Assembly (NCBI GenBank): GCA_949775045.1
Contig: OX459104.1
Coordinates: forward strand, 6,281,306-6,345,305
Length of the DNA stretch: 64,000 nucleotides
Direction: 5' to 3'
Source: Metridium senile
Lineage: Eukaryota; Cnidaria; Anthozoa; Actiniaria; Metridiidae
In this document: in pieces, positions 20,017 through 26,456 of the stretch
Position numbering within the stretch: the stretch's first letter is position 1
Layout of the letters: the number at the start of each line of letters is the position of its first letter
Translations under genes and position numbers: made by a program
The notes under the pieces: model-generated
What the model was told of the DNA's origin: nothing
Seen by the model: the letters and a program-made list of their open reading frames with translations, nothing else
Database searches by the model: none

Positions 20017-21190
20017 ATTAGAGTTTGACTAAATGCCGTGGGTCTTGGGTACCAAGTCGTGGGTCGTGGGTACCAAGTCGTGGGTTTGAAAAATAGTTTC
20101 AAAAATAGAAACCCACAAGAATGTGTACATAGAAACGTGTAGAACCTCAAAAATTTCAAAATTTTGACAAGTTTAATGTATAAAACATGCATGAAATAAA
20201 TGTATTAAATGTATTTTTTTTTAATTTATGTACACTGCTTTACATTTTTTAATCGGCAATTGCACTTTTTATGAAATTATATTATAAGTACAAAAGTAGA
20301 CGTATAAAACGACGTATAAAACGAAGCATGAATGTAAATATCATACAGTAGAATTTCAGCACTCGGGATCATAAAACGCTTGCCGTGATCTTTAAGAAAT
20401 TTGTAGCAAAAAACATAGGCAACTAGCAGAGCATTTAACGCTTGGCAGTAAAAAAATTGGCCTTTTGACCGATCACGATAAATTCTGTTTTTAGGTTTTA
20501 AAATAAGCCAGTTAAATATTTTTAAAACACATTTTGGCGATCCAAAAATTATCATGAGTTCAAACGGTTTTGTCATGCATGAGTTTGTATCATGAGTTCC
20601 ATGATAATGGGACAGCCCCAGGTGGTACCGTAAATGGGACCCTATATTTTATAACTGATCACCTGTATGATGCAATTCTTGCAATTCTTCGCTTATTTAT
20701 AGCGAAAGTTGTTAAAGTGGATTTGTGATGTGCTAATTGATTCCTGCCGGGGAAGACCCGCACAAAGTCGCGGTACTGTAATCATGTTTTCTTTGTTATT
20801 TTACTTGGACGAACTCCGTAGAGGTAACACAGTTATACTGTAATTGAACATTGTTTTATATGGGGAGGGGGACAGGTGACGCCAAGTCTCGGATTTTTGT
20901 GTTTTTGAATGTCTCGGAGTCTCGAATTTTTAAATACAGTAAATATATGAGCTGATATATTTCTAGAATCTCAGGCTCGGATTTAAAAAATTACCATTCG
21001 CTACCCCCCCCCCCCCCCCCCCCTTTTTTAGCTTGGCTCTAAGCAGGATTTTTTTTTGGTGCATTGGCCGTGCACGTTTTTCATTTTGTGAATTGCCACC
21101 CCCATCCCCCAACTTCTAATGGTCCACCCCTTATCAAGTATACGTTCACTAGTTTTCTGTTAACTTCCAGTTTAAGTTTTCATTAAGCTA

Positions 21191-21462
21191 CAATCATTGC
21201 CAAAATGTGTTGGCACGATCACATTTCGGACACTTTTTTGTGGGTCTATCATTTTTTTCATTTATGAGGATAAGTTTGTCTACCCCCCTCCCCCAATACA
21301 ATGTTGCTGTTTTTCATGAAAGAGTACAAGAGTTGGAAATGTTTCCCGCGATTGACAAGGTTCATATACCCCTCCAGCAACATTGACAGGGGGAGGGGGG
21401 GTATTACAGATATAGGAACATAACAAAATCAACAATCGTGCCAACAGTTTTGTCAATGATTG
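21191..21462 (+). repeat. Left 272-bp terminal palindromic repeat
   Basis: Outer arms CAATCATTGCCAAAATGTGT... pair with ...CAGTTTTGTCAATGATTG over about 30 bp. An inner stem 21281-21309 (TACCCCCCTCCCCC, then CAATGTTGCTG) pairs with 21375-21403 (CAGCAACATTG, then GGGGGAGGGGGGGTA). The loop is about 65 bp. Read base by base it is identical to the copy at 25819-26090. Confidence 0.9.
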
Positions 21463-21853
21463 TCTGAGACACATATGACTTAAAACGCCATTGACATTGT
21501 TGTGGAAATGATATGAAATTTTCAGGACACAAAGTACATAGTGTACCGATTTGAACAGTAGCAAAATTTTTTCCAGAAAGAAGTTAATACTATCATGTGA
21601 CGTCACTTTTGTTTAAAGTGCTTTAAATGAATGTAAAATTTACATGACAAGACACTTATATGCTCTATATTCGATAACACCCGTGTTCAAAATAAATGTT
21701 CTAAGGTAATAAGCAGTCCTTCACACATATATGCTTCGTAGTTGATATATTTATACTATAGCTCGCGCAAAATTGGATAACCATAGTAACGCCCAAAAAT
21801 GCACGCGCTTAAGGCGTACGCAACAATACACGTCATTGTGAAGATATCAACGT

Positions 21854-22963
21854 TTGGAGAGGGTGAAAATGGTCTTCAAAGGCAAGATTAATGCCTATAA
21901 ATGTGCCAGAGCGTATGTTCTGTTTAGAAAAAACACATACTCTCTTTCGGAAATAGCAGAGATGTGTTCTATATCAAAAAGCAGTGTAAGAAGAATTGGT
22001 TTAAACAAAATGAAGCGGAATTCAAAACAACCCGACAAGAAAAGTAAGTTGGGAAGAAAGACTAACTTAACTGACAGAGAAAGAAGAATTCTATCCAGGG
22101 GAATCAAAAGGATCAGGAAAGAGGACGTAAATTTTACAGTGAAATCTTTAATAGAGTATTGCGGGCTTTCGCAGCGGAAAACAAGCTACCGGACTTACCT
22201 CAGAGAAATACAAAGATTAGGGTACAAGAGTTTACAGACAAGAAGAAAGGGACTAATCAGTGAATCTGACAGAAAGAAAAGACTTAAATTTGCAAAAGAC
22301 AATGTTAAAACATTGAAAACTACACCAAACTATTGGACGGAGGACATGGTATTTTATCTTGACGGAGTTTCTTTTATTCATAAGTACAATCCGAAAGCAA
22401 ATGCAATGAGTCCTAAAGGGAGGGTTTGGAGAAAAAGAAATGAGGGATTACAAATAACATCTAAGGGTTCGAAGAGTCTAGCAGGAGGAAGAAGGCTCCA
22501 CCTTTTGGTTCTTATTAGTTATAGACAAGGTGCTATTTTTATTGAACAATACCACAAAATGGATGGCGAGTATTTCGCTGACTTTATTACTAGAAATTTT
22601 GAAAACATTTTCAAAAAGTTTTCAAAAACCAAAGCCAGAAAATTTGTTATGGACAACGATCCTAGTCAAAATAGCTCATTAGCTAAAAAAGCACTAAAAA
22701 AATCAAAGGCTACAATGGTGTGTATTCCTGCAAGGTCTCCAGACCTAAATCCGATTGAAAATATTTTTAATTTAGTTAAAAGAAAAATAAATAATGATGC
22801 TATAGAGCAAAATATTCTTAAAGAGAATTTTGAAACTTTTAAAGAACGTGTTATTGATACTTTATATTCGTTTGATACAACTGTCATAGACAAAACTATT
22901 CAAAGCATTCCCAAAAGACTTGAAGATATTATTAAATCCAAGGGATTAAGAACTAAATATTAG
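21854..22963 (+). CDS. Tc1/mariner DD34E transposase
   Basis: An intact 369-residue frame. The N-terminus has a helix-turn-helix (about residues 10-50, ending ISKSSVRRIGL), a GRK-type linker (LGRKTNLTDRE) and a second Tc1-like HTH (about 75-125). The DDE_3 catalytic core shows D170 (MVFYLDGVSF), D267 (FVMDNDPSQNSS) and E302 (RSPDLNPIENIF) with exactly 34 residues between the second D and E, the Tc1 signature. Length is close to the usual 340-350. It should cut and paste elements with TA target sites, matching the TA at the outer edges. A second in-frame Met at residue 6 is possible as start. An AATAAA at 23153 lies 190 bp past the stop. No frameshift or stop is present, which suggests recent activity. 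Confidence 0.9.
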   Translation: MERVKMVFKGKINAYKCARAYVLFRKNTYSLSEIAEMCSISKSSVRRIGLNKMKRNSKQPDKKSKLGRKTNLTDRERRILSRGIKRIRKEDVNFTVKSLIEYCGLSQRKTSYRTYLREIQRLGYKSLQTRRKGLISESDRKKRLKFAKDNVKTLKTTPNYWTEDMVFYLDGVSFIHKYNPKANAMSPKGRVWRKRNEGLQITSKGSKSLAGGRRLHLLVLISYRQGAIFIEQYHKMDGEYFADFITRNFENIFKKFSKTKARKFVMDNDPSQNSSLAKKALKKSKATMVCIPARSPDLNPIENIFNLVKRKINNDAIEQNILKENFETFKERVIDTLYSFDTTVIDKTIQSIPKRLEDIIKSKGLRTKY

Positions 22964-23676
22964 ATTTACTACCTTGTATTAGTACATCCATTTTGCCTTT
23001 AAAGACCATTTTCACTCTCTTCACTGTCTTATGAAATTGATATTTTCACAATCACATTGTTGTCACGTAATCAGTATTTATATAGTGTGCAGTGTCTTCT
23101 GTGCAGAACACGGTTCTCCATTGTAAAATCGTAATGATTCACTAAGTGCAACAATAAAAAGAGCTTAGACCTTGATCAATGTTTTATTGATGTTTATTCT
23201 AACTATTTCCTACAGAAATTATATTCAAAAAGCCTAACATGCCCATTTTATCAACGGTACTCCACACAAAACTTGTATTAATTGTTTTGAACATGTCTTC
23301 ATCTTTTTATAAGTGATTCAACGTGGAGTACCGTTGGTTTTGAGTTAAATACTACAATTTGAAATATAAACTAAACGTCAGACAATTAAAGAATATATAC
23401 AAACCCTATTGTTGAAAAAATTGGAGGGATATTTGTTTAATTTGGGGAGTAATCTATTATTTAACAGTGGAGAACCGTTGCTATTTCACGGACAACTATA
23501 TACAAGCGCACATGGTGTTGAATGACACATTACAGACGTCATGTCTATACAAACAATGTTTTCTTTAATGTATTATCTCTGTATAGAGATAATAAATATA
23601 TTTATATCTATAGTATAAGTATAGATATATATATATCTATGTAGTATAGATATAAAGATATTTATATTTATTACAC

Positions 23677-23764
<88 letters not shown>

Positions 23765-23882
23765 TAGATATAAATATATAGACAGACAGACAGACAGACA
23801 GACAAAAATGTATGTACACAAATTTATTAGCAAAAATGTATGTACAAAAATTTATTAGCATACATACATATTCTTTGTTCAT
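22964..23882. other. Intergenic core region of the composite element
   Basis: About 900 bp between the two convergent genes. It holds the iteron-like motif cluster (23111-23480), AT-rich DNA, a (TA)n tract at about 23681-23760 and a short (CAGA)n tract at about 23780-23805. Confidence 0.7.
23111..23480. promoter_or_regulatory. Iteron-like nested inverted motif, candidate Rep target
   Basis: Four copies of a ~15-bp word, consensus CAACGGTWCTCCACTG: forward at 23111-23123 (CGGTTCTCCATTG) and 23252-23267 (CAACGGTACTCCACAC), inverted at 23323-23336 (GTGGAGTACCGTTG) and 23465-23480 (CAGTGGAGAACCGTTG). The inner pair can form a stem with a ~55-nt loop, and the outer pair encloses it. Rep proteins bind such iterons near origins, but function here is inference. 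Confidence 0.4.
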
Positions 23883-25232
23883 TTATTTATTAGTTAAAAT
23901 AAGTTCTGAGAAACAACGTGCGCATGGTTTCATTGCACATTGCTCAACCTCTGGTATTTGTCTCCAAAATTCGAAATAATGCCAGCGTACTCTCATCATA
24001 TCAGTATTAATTCGATCTATTGATCCTCCCTTTATCATAACGAGTGGGGCATCTGCAGTCGCGAAAAAGGGTGAGTCCTTGTCGAAGAGAATGTCTTGTT
24101 GTACAAAACTTTTAGGTGCGGCTAAGTGCATAGTATCCCCTTCAAGCATTTGCAAGAAATCGGACCATGCGATTATAGAAGGCGACCATCTAAAGTCATT
24201 GAGGATTATTACTTCTGACTCCTCTGCACCCACCCACGCAAAACCACCAGTTGCCGGGTTCACAAAAGCATGGTAAATAGCTTTCAGAGGTGAAATCATG
24301 AATGTTTTACCTGAGTTTGCCGGTCCATATATATATATGTTTCGATATTTTGCACGTCCATAGTGAAGTGCTGAGTAAATTGCGCTAGCATAGACATGCA
24401 CATTTATTTCATTTCGGTGAAGTATCTGTAGTGCGGCCGCTAGCCATTTCTTTTCACATCCTTCTATACAGTGTTTTTCACCTTCCTCTACTAGTAGTTC
24501 TATGCGACTTTTATTCAAGCGTTCTTGTTTCTTTTCAGCATCTTGCAGTTGTGAAGATATAGATAATGCTTCATTTACTACTCTGATCCCTCTATTCGCT
24601 ATAAATTGTGCAAGATCTTTTTTTCCCTCTTTCTCCTGTTTTGCTGCATAGGCCATTAGATCGAGCCGAGTCTTGATATTATTGTTTCGAATAATAGTGG
24701 TTACTTCGTAGACGCTTAGCATTCGTTTTCTTTTCTTCTTTTGCTTCTTCTTGGGGCCACTGTCTTGGCCATCAGCTCGACGAGATGTTGTAGCTGCAGA
24801 GGCTGCAGTAGTTCTCGGTTCGTCCTCTAAGCTTGGATGGTCGGGCGATAAAAACGGTGTTGTATCTTCTTTTGTGCAGTAGCGATAAGCACTATAATAG
24901 TTACTGTGATTGTTGCTGAAATTGACTTGAATTCCAAACCTTGCATCTAATGTATCACGAACTAGAAGCCATCTACTTCTTTTGTTGAGCTTTAGAGCCA
25001 TATGGTAGTGATATACTTTGTCGGACAGGTTGTTGTTTGTATCGTTGTGATTATGCTCTTCTTTAGCGACTATAAACTGTACAATACGCGATGTCGTTGA
25101 TGTACCCCATGCATTACGAACAATATTTGCAAACGATTCACGAGAATGGACTTTTTCGGGATCTGCTCGACTGTATGTAACTAAATAGACCAAACGTTGC
25201 GAACGATTCGGCATTGACTCTGCCATGATCAC
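23883..25232 (-). CDS. Rep protein: HUH endonuclease plus SF3 helicase
   Basis: An intact 449-residue frame. Motif 1 is VYLVTYSRAD (15-24), the HUH metal site is YHYHMAL with H75 and H77, and motif 3 is YCTKED with the likely nucleophile Y118 and K121. A lysine-rich stretch (161-170) looks like a nuclear localisation signal. The helicase has Walker A GPANSGKT (303-310), Walker B VIILNDFRW (341-349) and motif C near SPFFATADAPL (387-397), where the usual Asn is not obvious, followed by an arginine-rich MMRVRW. This is the domain order of parvovirus NS1 and CRESS-DNA virus Reps, with the LNDFRW helicase style I associate with cellular or transposon copies in aquatic invertebrates. It would nick and unwind DNA for rolling-circle or rolling-hairpin replication. 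It ends tail-to-tail with the transposase gene. No capsid gene is seen. Confidence 0.9.
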   Translation of the reverse strand: MIMAESMPNRSQRLVYLVTYSRADPEKVHSRESFANIVRNAWGTSTTSRIVQFIVAKEEHNHNDTNNNLSDKVYHYHMALKLNKRSRWLLVRDTLDARFGIQVNFSNNHSNYYSAYRYCTKEDTTPFLSPDHPSLEDEPRTTAASAATTSRRADGQDSGPKKKQKKKRKRMLSVYEVTTIIRNNNIKTRLDLMAYAAKQEKEGKKDLAQFIANRGIRVVNEALSISSQLQDAEKKQERLNKSRIELLVEEGEKHCIEGCEKKWLAAALQILHRNEINVHVYASAIYSALHYGRAKYRNIYIYGPANSGKTFMISPLKAIYHAFVNPATGGFAWVGAEESEVIILNDFRWSPSIIAWSDFLQMLEGDTMHLAAPKSFVQQDILFDKDSPFFATADAPLVMIKGGSIDRINTDMMRVRWHYFEFWRQIPEVEQCAMKPCARCFSELILTNK

Positions 25233-25818
25233 AATGTGAACTTCAAATAGACGTTTTCTGCTCAGTTGTTGTATAATGTTCTTTATGTATAACGCTTTGA
25301 AGTATGAGATTTATTTTACAAATGCACAACTTTTATAATGTACCAAACCAGTGACGTGCATCTTTTGCAATATGTGACGTTTGCGCTATTACGTACAAAA
25401 TGTAGCAATTTTGAGGCGCGTCAATTATAGCATATACGTCAAAAGTAACTTCACATTCGTAGGTATTTACATAAGATGTAGTTGATAAGAAAATCATTGT
25501 TTAAAGAGAACGTGGTTATTATTGGATTAACTGTGAAGGTGATGATATCTTTTCTGATAATTACTTCATTCTATTAAGTTAGAGACCTTTTAAAATATTT
25601 TTTTGGTGTATCCCCTTGTTACGTTGGCATAATTTCGCACTTAAATATAAGGGTTGCTACGGCAAAATGACATTTCCACTAGTTTTCATGTCGTTAGGGG
25701 TCGGATATACACATATTACATATCAATCTTTTCCTTTCGAGGCATAGCTTGTAATTAGGAACGCTTCTGACCTCTTACTCGTTTATTTTTAATGAAATTC
25801 CACAATATGTCCCTCAGA

Positions 25819-26090
25819 CAATCATTGCCAAAATGTGTTGGCACGATCACATTTCGGACACTTTTTTGTGGGTCTATCATTTTTTTCATTTATGAGGATA
25901 AGTTTGTCTACCCCCCTCCCCCAATACAATGTTGCTGTTTTTCATGAAAGAGTACAAGAGTTGGAAATGTTTCCCGCGATTGACAAGGTTCATATACCCC
26001 TCCAGCAACATTGACAGGGGGAGGGGGGGTATTACAGATATAGGAACATAACAAAATCAACAATCGTGCCAACAGTTTTGTCAATGATTG
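25819..26090 (+). repeat. Right 272-bp terminal palindromic repeat
   Basis: Identical by eye to 21191-21462 and in the same orientation. It is preceded by CTCAGA (end of the unique core) and followed by TA. The outer ~30-bp arms and the inner C/G-rich stem are the same as in the left copy. Confidence 0.9.
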
Positions 26091-26209
26091 TAGGTATATA
26101 CATTTGAGAGCAACGCTTCATACAAAATATATACATTTCAATTTGGGTTTAGCTCACAATTGAAATAATTAAGGCATCGGATTTCAAGTACAAAATAAGT
26201 ATACTGTTT

Positions 26210-26253
<44 letters not shown>

Positions 26254-26456
26254 CTGTGGGTTTTTGGTTTTTGCATTTTGAACTATTTTTGAAACCCACA
26301 ACTTGGTACCCACGGCCCACGACTTGGTACCCACGACCCATGACTTCATACCCACGACTTCATACCCACGACCCACGACTTTGTATCCACGTCCCACGAC
26401 TTCATACCCACGACCCACGACTTTGTACCCACGACCCACAACATTTAGTCAAACTC

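Follow-up and report, generated by a model that had tools for sequence, protein, structure and literature searches.

Known systems and the element in the window

Tc1/mariner transposons are characterized by a DD34E transposase, duplication of a TA target, inverted ends, short excision footprints and the occurrence of non-autonomous derivatives. Helitrons and Replitrons are HUH transposons of eukaryotes, and a Helitron produces no target duplication and carries a Pif1-type helicase. RepE1 forms have been reported from sea anemones in PMC11071296, and in the available portion of that text the word Tc1 appears 0 times. A DNA transposon fused to a replication system is exemplified by Teratorn, which the available part of PMC10175614 presents as a 180-kb fusion of a piggyBac transposon with a herpesvirus.

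The stretch of DNA analyzed here (the window, 64,000 nucleotides of Metridium senile contig OX459104.1) contains a 4900-bp unit whose open reading frame list includes two open convergent genes, one for a Tc1-type DD34E transposase and one for an HUH-SF3 Rep. We give a probability of roughly two in three to the view that this unit represents a single insertion of a composite transposon-replicon, whose transposase would move palindrome-bounded DNA and whose Rep would make concatemers. The element shares with Tc1, Sleeping Beauty and MITEs the whole set of Tc1/mariner traits listed above; unlike them, it has a complete palindromic mobile unit at each end, a Rep gene adjoining the transposase gene in the loci read (deleted derivatives excepted), head-to-tail multimers and a preference for CTAG. 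With the Rep and NS1 proteins of CRESS-DNA viruses and parvoviruses it has in common the HUH endonuclease motifs and the SF3 helicase, together with a hairpin as candidate origin, but it differs from these viruses in having its own DDE transposase, a TA-duplicated site and no capsid candidate. As in Helitrons and Replitrons, an HUH enzyme resides within a eukaryotic mobile element; different from both, there are a DDE transposase, palindromes at both termini, a TA duplication and helicase matches to SF3 families, and on the last two grounds a Helitron was rejected. Compared with what is available on Teratorn, the fusion is of the same kind but measures 4.9 kb and joins two genes from other families. 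In the open literature (titles and the starts of abstracts), no Tc1 transposon with a Rep was described, which is weak evidence, since Repbase and most subscription papers lay outside the search.

Organization of the element

The features of the unit and its edges are as follows.

21189..21190, no strand: left TA target duplication (empty-site test done on another copy of the family)
21191..21462, + strand: left 272-bp palindromic terminal unit, identical to the right copy and occurring alone elsewhere
21283..21401, no strand: inner hairpin of the left unit, candidate Rep origin (three-family alignment; putative function), formed by a C-rich arm plus CAATGTTG (21299-21306) and by CAACATTG (21378-21385) plus a G-rich arm
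21463..25818, + strand: core of 4356 bp, TCTGAG...CTCAGA, with matching core ends at the internal junctions read
21869..22963, + strand: Tc1-type DD34E transposase, 364 aa (PF13358, Sleeping Beauty match, invariant triad)
23561..23882, no strand: AT-rich stretch with a microsatellite, the greatest length variation among copies (262 to 657 bp)
23883..25226, - strand: HUH-SF3 Rep, 447 aa (alignment of 30; Parvo_NS1 matches)
25819..26090, + strand: right 272-bp palindromic terminal unit, identical to the left copy
26091..26092, no strand: right TA target duplication (edge reading of the window and of the tabulated copies)

The sequence-only reading had described a convergent gene pair between identical 272-bp palindromes with TA at the outer edges only, and the letters of the window bear out this structure, the inner edges reading CTCAGA before the right unit and TCTGAG after the left one. 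Between the direct repeats (21190-21463 and 25818-26091) none of the 274 bp differs, edge A and T included; the mobile unit proper has 272 bp (CAATC...GATTG). Among unspliced reading frames, the core contains no third one of at least 100 aa from ATG and, hence, no capsid candidate.

The transposase of the window matches PF13358 in a profile search (E 2.6e-14) and Sleeping Beauty (E 2.6e-11), and the DD34E triad D165, D262 and E297 is invariant across 23 aligned sequences. In the Rep alignment (n = 30), H75, Y116 and K119 occur in all members and H73 in at least 90%; we take H73/H75 to be the HUH motif and Y116/K119 the YxxK tyrosine motif of an HUH-SF3 Rep. The P-loop of the SF3 helicase is GPANSGKT, with K307 invariant in the same alignment. 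At E ≤0.1, Parvo_NS1 matches 20 of the 30 members (best 2.4e-6), RNA_helicase 15 and PPV_E1_C 13, whereas the Rep of the window by itself scores under the Pfam cut-offs; the search of solved structures returned no significant match (best E 0.12 with the single Rep and 0.28 with the Rep profile). Stop-free copies in the host genome amount to 93 of 94 for Rep (the best 94 of 402 candidates) and to 96 of 112 for the transposase (the best 112 of 415 candidates), in both cases among the matches listed.

The 272-bp unit is an imperfect nested palindrome with a predicted DNA fold of -51.2 kcal/mol (z = -6.15), equaled by 0 of 200 shuffles. The inverted ends ACAATC...GATTGT recur in three families, and since the palindrome bears two such Tc1-type ends, it constitutes a minimal transposon. 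In fact, each terminal repeat is a mobile unit in itself, also found alone with TA on either side in the host genome, where the palindromes listed are the best 40 of 284 candidates. The nested hairpin is common to the three families, with 13 of 54 predicted pairs changed on both sides in their alignment, and is probably the Rep origin, as far as can be judged from sequence. The palindrome also contains the string TATTAC; its resemblance to the CRESS nick site may be due to chance, and it was set aside.

Copies and target sites in the host genome

When other copies were sought in the genome, the gene pair and its ends were found to recur at tens of host sites, which excludes the joining of the two genes by the assembler that the sequence-only reading had envisaged. 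At least 94 Rep copies (of 402 candidates), 99 to 100% identical, lie in 26 clusters, 16 of them multi-copy. By pairing of outer ends, 61 insertions were obtained, comprising 11 lone palindromes, 6 of intermediate length, 18 of one unit and 26 longer ones, classes that rest on length alone with most interiors unread and mutated ends missed; 13 left ends without a partner and 3 ambiguous pairs stand outside the 61. The end-to-end lengths of the paired insertions bunch at whole unit numbers. In one insertion classed as one-unit (C5:9.306 Mb), the first palindrome (L092) is damaged, and a 538-bp insertion classed as intermediate may correspond to two fused palindromes.

Integration at TA had been proposed, and it is upheld by TA edges in 18 of 18 tabulated insertions (CTAG in 16) and by empty sites confirming the TA duplication: all five paralogous ones that were read hold a single CTAG. 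The 18-site table is exclusive of L012 and L018 (right palindrome lost), of C1:65.39 and C151 (one end read), of C2:7.76/7.80 (ends common to C4; N gap) and of later copies, namely, C1:18.2 (TA), four lone palindromes (TA) and C1:6.19, which bears a TT duplication in place of TA. From this TT it appears that the dinucleotide at the edge comes from the target. It is thus shown that elements of the family insert at TA, mostly within CTAG, with a 2-bp target duplication.

Arrays, internal junctions and footprints

Among the copies listed, 14 of the 16 multi-copy clusters have a single orientation. The two mixed clusters lie at C2:37.3-37.5 Mb, where the one switch read (C2:37.354 Mb) falls at an N gap, so that head-to-head concatemers were dropped as a sign of rolling-hairpin replication; a second switch in that region (37.4458-37.4622 Mb) is outside the orientation reading. 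The internal palindromes read have no TA flanks, and the arrays are accordingly not products of serial transposition. The rearranged junction L067 is an exception to the core ends that otherwise match at the internal junctions read.

At 43 internal junctions the palindrome is absent and a Tc1-like footprint is found, in which an A and a T enclose CATG or a related remnant of 2 to 6 bases: ACATGT in 10, AATGT, ACTGT and ACAGT in 9 each, ACAT in 3 and three others once each, against 0 in a reversed-pattern control. From these sequences, we infer that the footprint junctions are products of the transposase. It is strongly indicated that the transposase of the element, or a close relative, both integrates at TA and cuts internal units from arrays.

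An array of six units at C9:7.25 Mb, of which one was read across and one partly, the others being deduced from spacing, has an intact transposase and is without most of Rep; Rep would thus be needed in trans at most. Of the same kind may be three single insertions that have an intact transposase and, at 3530-3531 bp, are too short for a full unit. The outer flanks of C4:19.94-19.96 Mb (3 units) and C2:7.76-7.85 Mb (at least 13 units, N gap) are the same, and this site with two unit numbers may reflect a change in unit number after integration or a mis-assembly. In the array at C2:7.80 Mb, transposase variants are mixed.

Divergent lineages

Rep homologues were found in corals, an anemone and a brittle star. 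The sequence-only reading had considered that Rep and Tc1 genes might occur in unrelated elements; they adjoin in each of the eight loci read from other lineages (the transposase locus at C3:18.06 Mb is outside this count). Furthermore, distances among the Reps agree with those among the transposases (Mantel r 0.81, p 0.002) over 8 pairs, 7 of which were inferred from the same source and longest contigs of equal size, about one possibly being a coincidence; an eighth equal-size pair (1617), too short for both genes, was left out. Judging from the sequences, Rep and transposase stayed together across deep divergence. Many host-genome copies and the divergent families bear out the earlier claims that the gene pair is one element, that it integrates at TA and that it is tied to the palindromic ends. 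The family of the window itself includes units without most of Rep.

Origin of the multimers

The occurrence of single copies and head-to-tail chains suggests that the element can replicate besides jumping, and the multimers, together with the conserved nested hairpin, suggest at the sequence level a replication through Rep. It is possible to hypothesize that an integrated copy gives rise to a circle of one core and one palindrome, that Rep nicks it at the hairpin, with rolling-circle replication yielding head-to-tail concatemers, and that the transposase uses the outermost palindromes to integrate monomers or concatemers; a replication route would thus be added to cut-and-paste. A circle accounts better for the head-to-tail order than does a rolling hairpin of the parvovirus type.

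Alternatively, arrays could have grown in place after insertion of a monomer, by unequal crossing-over or by sister gap repair upon excision of an internal palindrome, with Rep as a passenger or serving another step. Such growth would account for the array of Rep-less units, the flanks common to C4:19.9 and C2:7.8 Mb, which suggest one site with differing unit numbers, the mixture of transposase variants at C2:7.80 Mb and the loss of palindromes within arrays. We hold it to be rather unlikely, considering that 16 of the 26 Rep clusters are multi-copy and that whole-unit lengths occur at many young sites, that the four loci read with a shared 4-bp insertion in the transposase all have an open Rep, and that the Rep-Tc1 pairing has been kept over deep divergence. 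Far less probable is an endogenized CRESS- or parvovirus-like virus with an acquired Tc1 gene as integrase, its integrated copies being proviruses. The resemblance of relatives of the Rep to Parvo_NS1, to papillomavirus E1 and, more weakly, to CRESS Reps would agree with it, as would the endogenized RepE1 cressviruses reported from sea anemones (PMC11071296, in the portion available), but the palindromes act as transposon ends and the core offers no candidate for a capsid. Viral contigs scanned with both proteins and both alignments gave pattern matches and no confirmed relative, and a plain endogenous parvovirus was rejected. The chance nesting of two unrelated elements, or a false join, is refuted because the structure recurs, at tens of sites in the family of the window and at eight loci of other lineages, and its probability is negligible.

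Significance

The element in the window belongs to a family of animal mobile DNA that is real and was active recently, with a Tc1 transposase and a virus-like Rep between hairpin-forming ends. We lean towards considering the composite transposon-replicon a new eukaryotic class, in which a CRESS/parvovirus-type Rep would multiply an extrachromosomal circle, the Tc1 transposase would integrate monomers or concatemers at CTAG, and one palindrome would be at once the end of the transposon, a mini-transposon that can be excised and the origin of replication. Such a class would be old, with the pair kept, active now or until recently, and present across cnidarians and at least one echinoderm, judged by Rep homologues.

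The near-identical copies and the small size make laboratory work feasible. If the proposed reading is true, cut-and-paste DDE transposition and HUH-Rep replication, usually found apart, would be united in one 4.9-kb animal element. It would then become possible to test directly how a DNA transposon acquires a replication route, how a single step could give rise to transposon arrays and satellite-like DNA, and by what means Rep genes move between single-stranded DNA viruses and transposons.

Structure of the terminal repeats and of the two gene products

The 274-bp stretches at the two ends of the element are identical by sequence comparison and, once the edge A and T are set aside, each is a 272-bp unit (CAATC...GATTG) forming an imperfect nested palindrome, whose fold (z score, -6.15) was equalled by none of 200 shuffles. 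Both genes between them are open and converge.

21190-21463: left terminal stretch
21402-21407: TATTAC, a string adjoining the G-rich arm and reminiscent of the CRESS nick motif
Between the palindromes, + strand: transposase, 364 aa
Between the palindromes, - strand: Rep, 447 aa
25818-26091: right terminal stretch
26273-26456: tandem 21-bp CCCACGACTT-type repeat, immediately right of the element

The transposase matches DDE_3 (2.6e-14) and Sleeping Beauty (2.6e-11 as a single sequence, 2.9e-19 as a profile), and the invariance of D165, D262, and E297 across an alignment of 23 sequences identifies it as DD34E. Judged as a transposon, the element passed the Tc1 tests; judged as a virus it failed, no capsid candidate being found among ATG-initiated ORFs of at least 100 aa in the core. 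In Rep, the alignment revealed the motifs HYHM and YCTK and the P-loop GPANSGKT, and the motif tests were positive. As a single query, the window Rep fell below the Pfam cut-offs; among 30 relatives, matches with E values up to 0.1 were to Parvo_NS1 (20/30; best, 2.4e-6), RNA_helicase (15/30), PPV_E1_C (13/30), REP_ORF2-G2P (8/30), Rep_OBD (4/30), and Gemini_AL1 (1/30). The sequence-only reading had correctly described identical palindromic ends, two intact convergent genes, a DD34E transposase, and an HUH-SF3 Rep.

Copies, arrays, and integration at TA

In the 389-Mb host assembly, where the window lies on contig C10, a Rep search returned at least 94 copies, listed from 402 candidates, 99 to 100% identical and, in 93 of 94, without a stop. 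With gaps of up to 20 kb allowed, they fall into 26 clusters, 16 of which hold 2 to 14 copies among those listed. Spacing within clusters is often near 4.30, 4.57, or 4.84 kb; at the junctions read, these values reflect cores separated by no palindrome, by one, or by two, with microsatellite variation added. Units lie head to tail: a single orientation prevails in 14 of the 16 multicopy clusters, the exceptions being two adjacent clusters at C2:37.3-37.5 Mb. This 152-kb region (C2:37344445-37496154; loci L065 and L067) has many units in both orientations, the one switch read being at N, and two stops in each of the 14 transposase copies listed; one L067 junction carries a second copy of roughly 100 bp from the left end of the core.

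Exact searches found 77 left and 93 right outer ends (reversed controls, 0), which paired into 61 unambiguous insertions whose lengths cluster at whole unit numbers; by length, 11 measure 238 to 290 bp, 6 measure 538 to 3,531 bp, 18 measure 4,849 to 5,146 bp, and 26 are longer. The palindrome also occurs as a unit on its own: of 10 left ends picked because the gene lists did not include them, 4 are palindromes standing alone and flanked left and right by TA, 3 run into core, and 3 lack an intact palindrome. At L032 and L033, two palindromes are fused head to tail through one short CAATSATTG-type end (total, 537 bp). C4:19944510-19957955 and C2:7760308-7850176 (L020, L021, L028, L038, and L066) have left and right host flanks in common, with 3 units on C4 versus at least 13 units and a 200-N gap on C2; this is one site represented twice, through duplication, a second haplotype, or mis-scaffolding.

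In all 18 tabulated insertions bounded by a palindrome on each side, T precedes the element and A follows it (CTAG in 16). One further insertion is edged by TT in place of TA. The target is duplicated: for a deletion copy in repeated host sequence, the joined flanks gave 11 matches (2 to its own halves, 9 across the site), and all five empty sites read carry one unbroken CTAG, versus TA twice at the occupied copy. The array-internal palindromes read are set between CTCAGA and TCTGAG, without TA. It follows that arrays probably arose by replication or recombination rather than by serial transposition into a neighbor.

Probable excision footprints

The palindrome is absent from 43 junctions between cores, where 4 to 8 bases are left: ACATGT (10 junctions), AATGT, ACTGT, and ACAGT (9 each), ACAT (3), and ACATT, ATGT, and ACACATCT (1 each). 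Footprints of Tc1 and Sleeping Beauty are the model for reading them. The prevalent form, A plus CATG (or a trimmed version) plus T, is as expected if both ends were cut two bases inside and then rejoined, and ACAGT and ACTGT would be two alternative repairs of an A-A mismatch. Since footprints differ within a single array (e.g., C15:10.77 Mb), the palindromes were lost individually. An outer palindrome is gone from two insertions (L012 and L018). Recombination between the two ends could be another source of lone palindromes.

Divergence and Rep-less units

Across 16 loci compared piecewise, with the AT-rich stretch between the genes excluded, the core of about 4 kb carries 1 to 14 substitutions relative to the window copy, and small insertions in some loci. 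Units of one array have private changes in common and equal or nearly equal AT-stretch lengths. In the transposase gene, one 4-bp insertion is common to 4 of the 16 loci and a different one occurs in a fifth, Rep remaining open; the loci are C4:3.1 (L013), C16:8.28, C1:11.8, C7:5.8, and C7:3.4 Mb. Stops occur in 16 of 112 transposase copies among those listed.

At C9:7.25 Mb, an array of six units (one read across, one partly, the remainder judged from spacing) has Rep reduced to about 59 codons and an intact transposase. Three single insertions of 3,530 to 3,531 bp (C2:36529125, C13:893007, and C8:3972540), which keep an intact transposase but fall short of a whole unit, may likewise be derivatives of this type, perhaps a Rep-less sublineage that spread.

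Proposed mechanism

The evidence points strongly to the element's own transposase as the agent of movement and excision. A circle would form from the element, Rep would nick it at the inner hairpin, and rolling-circle replication would yield concatemers. The main rival is expansion of arrays in place, which is favored by the array of Rep-less units and by the site that C4:19.9 and C2:7.8 Mb have in common; rolling-hairpin replication is disfavored by the head-to-tail order. As Rep-less units with intact transposase form an array, at least some products act in trans, Rep not being needed in cis.

Related families and distribution

A distant Rep query led to seven more loci and a distant transposase query to an eighth. 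We looked for Rep and Tc1 genes in unrelated elements; the two adjoin and converge in 8/8 divergent loci, a count of loci read at least in part that leaves out a ninth, the transposase locus C3:18.06 Mb.

C11:4.20-4.27 Mb: array, at least 17 Reps, units mostly 3,975 or 3,796 bp
C1:54.26 Mb: single copy, sister of the C11 array
C1:36.9, C1:40.6, C10:11.77, C13:11.36, C1:7.72, and C6:14.0 Mb: other divergent loci

Relative to the window's family, the C11 family shows 45% identity in Rep and 42% in the transposase; its array is bounded on either side by a roughly 185-bp palindromic unit, with CTAG as the target. The C1:36.9 locus has identical 265-bp palindromes, CTAG, and core ends CTGAG/CTCAG as in the window family, and the C10:11.77 locus has 126-bp terminal repeats, 89% alike. 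Terminal repeats were sought and not found at the C1:40.6 locus and in the read portions of the C13, C1:7.72, and C6 loci; in several of these loci, the transposase match is broken into shifted pieces. Three families have palindromes with ACAATC ends in common, as well as an inner stem that combines a C-rich/G-rich arm with CAATGTTG/CAACATTG. Both sides changed in 13 of 54 predicted pairs, which, from three sequences, is suggestive of a conserved inner hairpin.

Database relatives numbered 217 (E up to 1e-3) with one Rep query, 668 (E up to 1e-5) with another, and 502 for the transposase; among the best 120 for each Rep query, the named sources are Porites, Oculina, Actinostola, Acropora, and the brittle star Amphiura. 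Rep and transposase distances are correlated (Mantel r = 0.81, P = 0.002) over the window and seven cluster pairs, matched by common source and equal-sized longest contig. In the openly accessible literature searched, and with the reservation that one may exist elsewhere, no publication pairing a Tc1 transposon with Rep was found.
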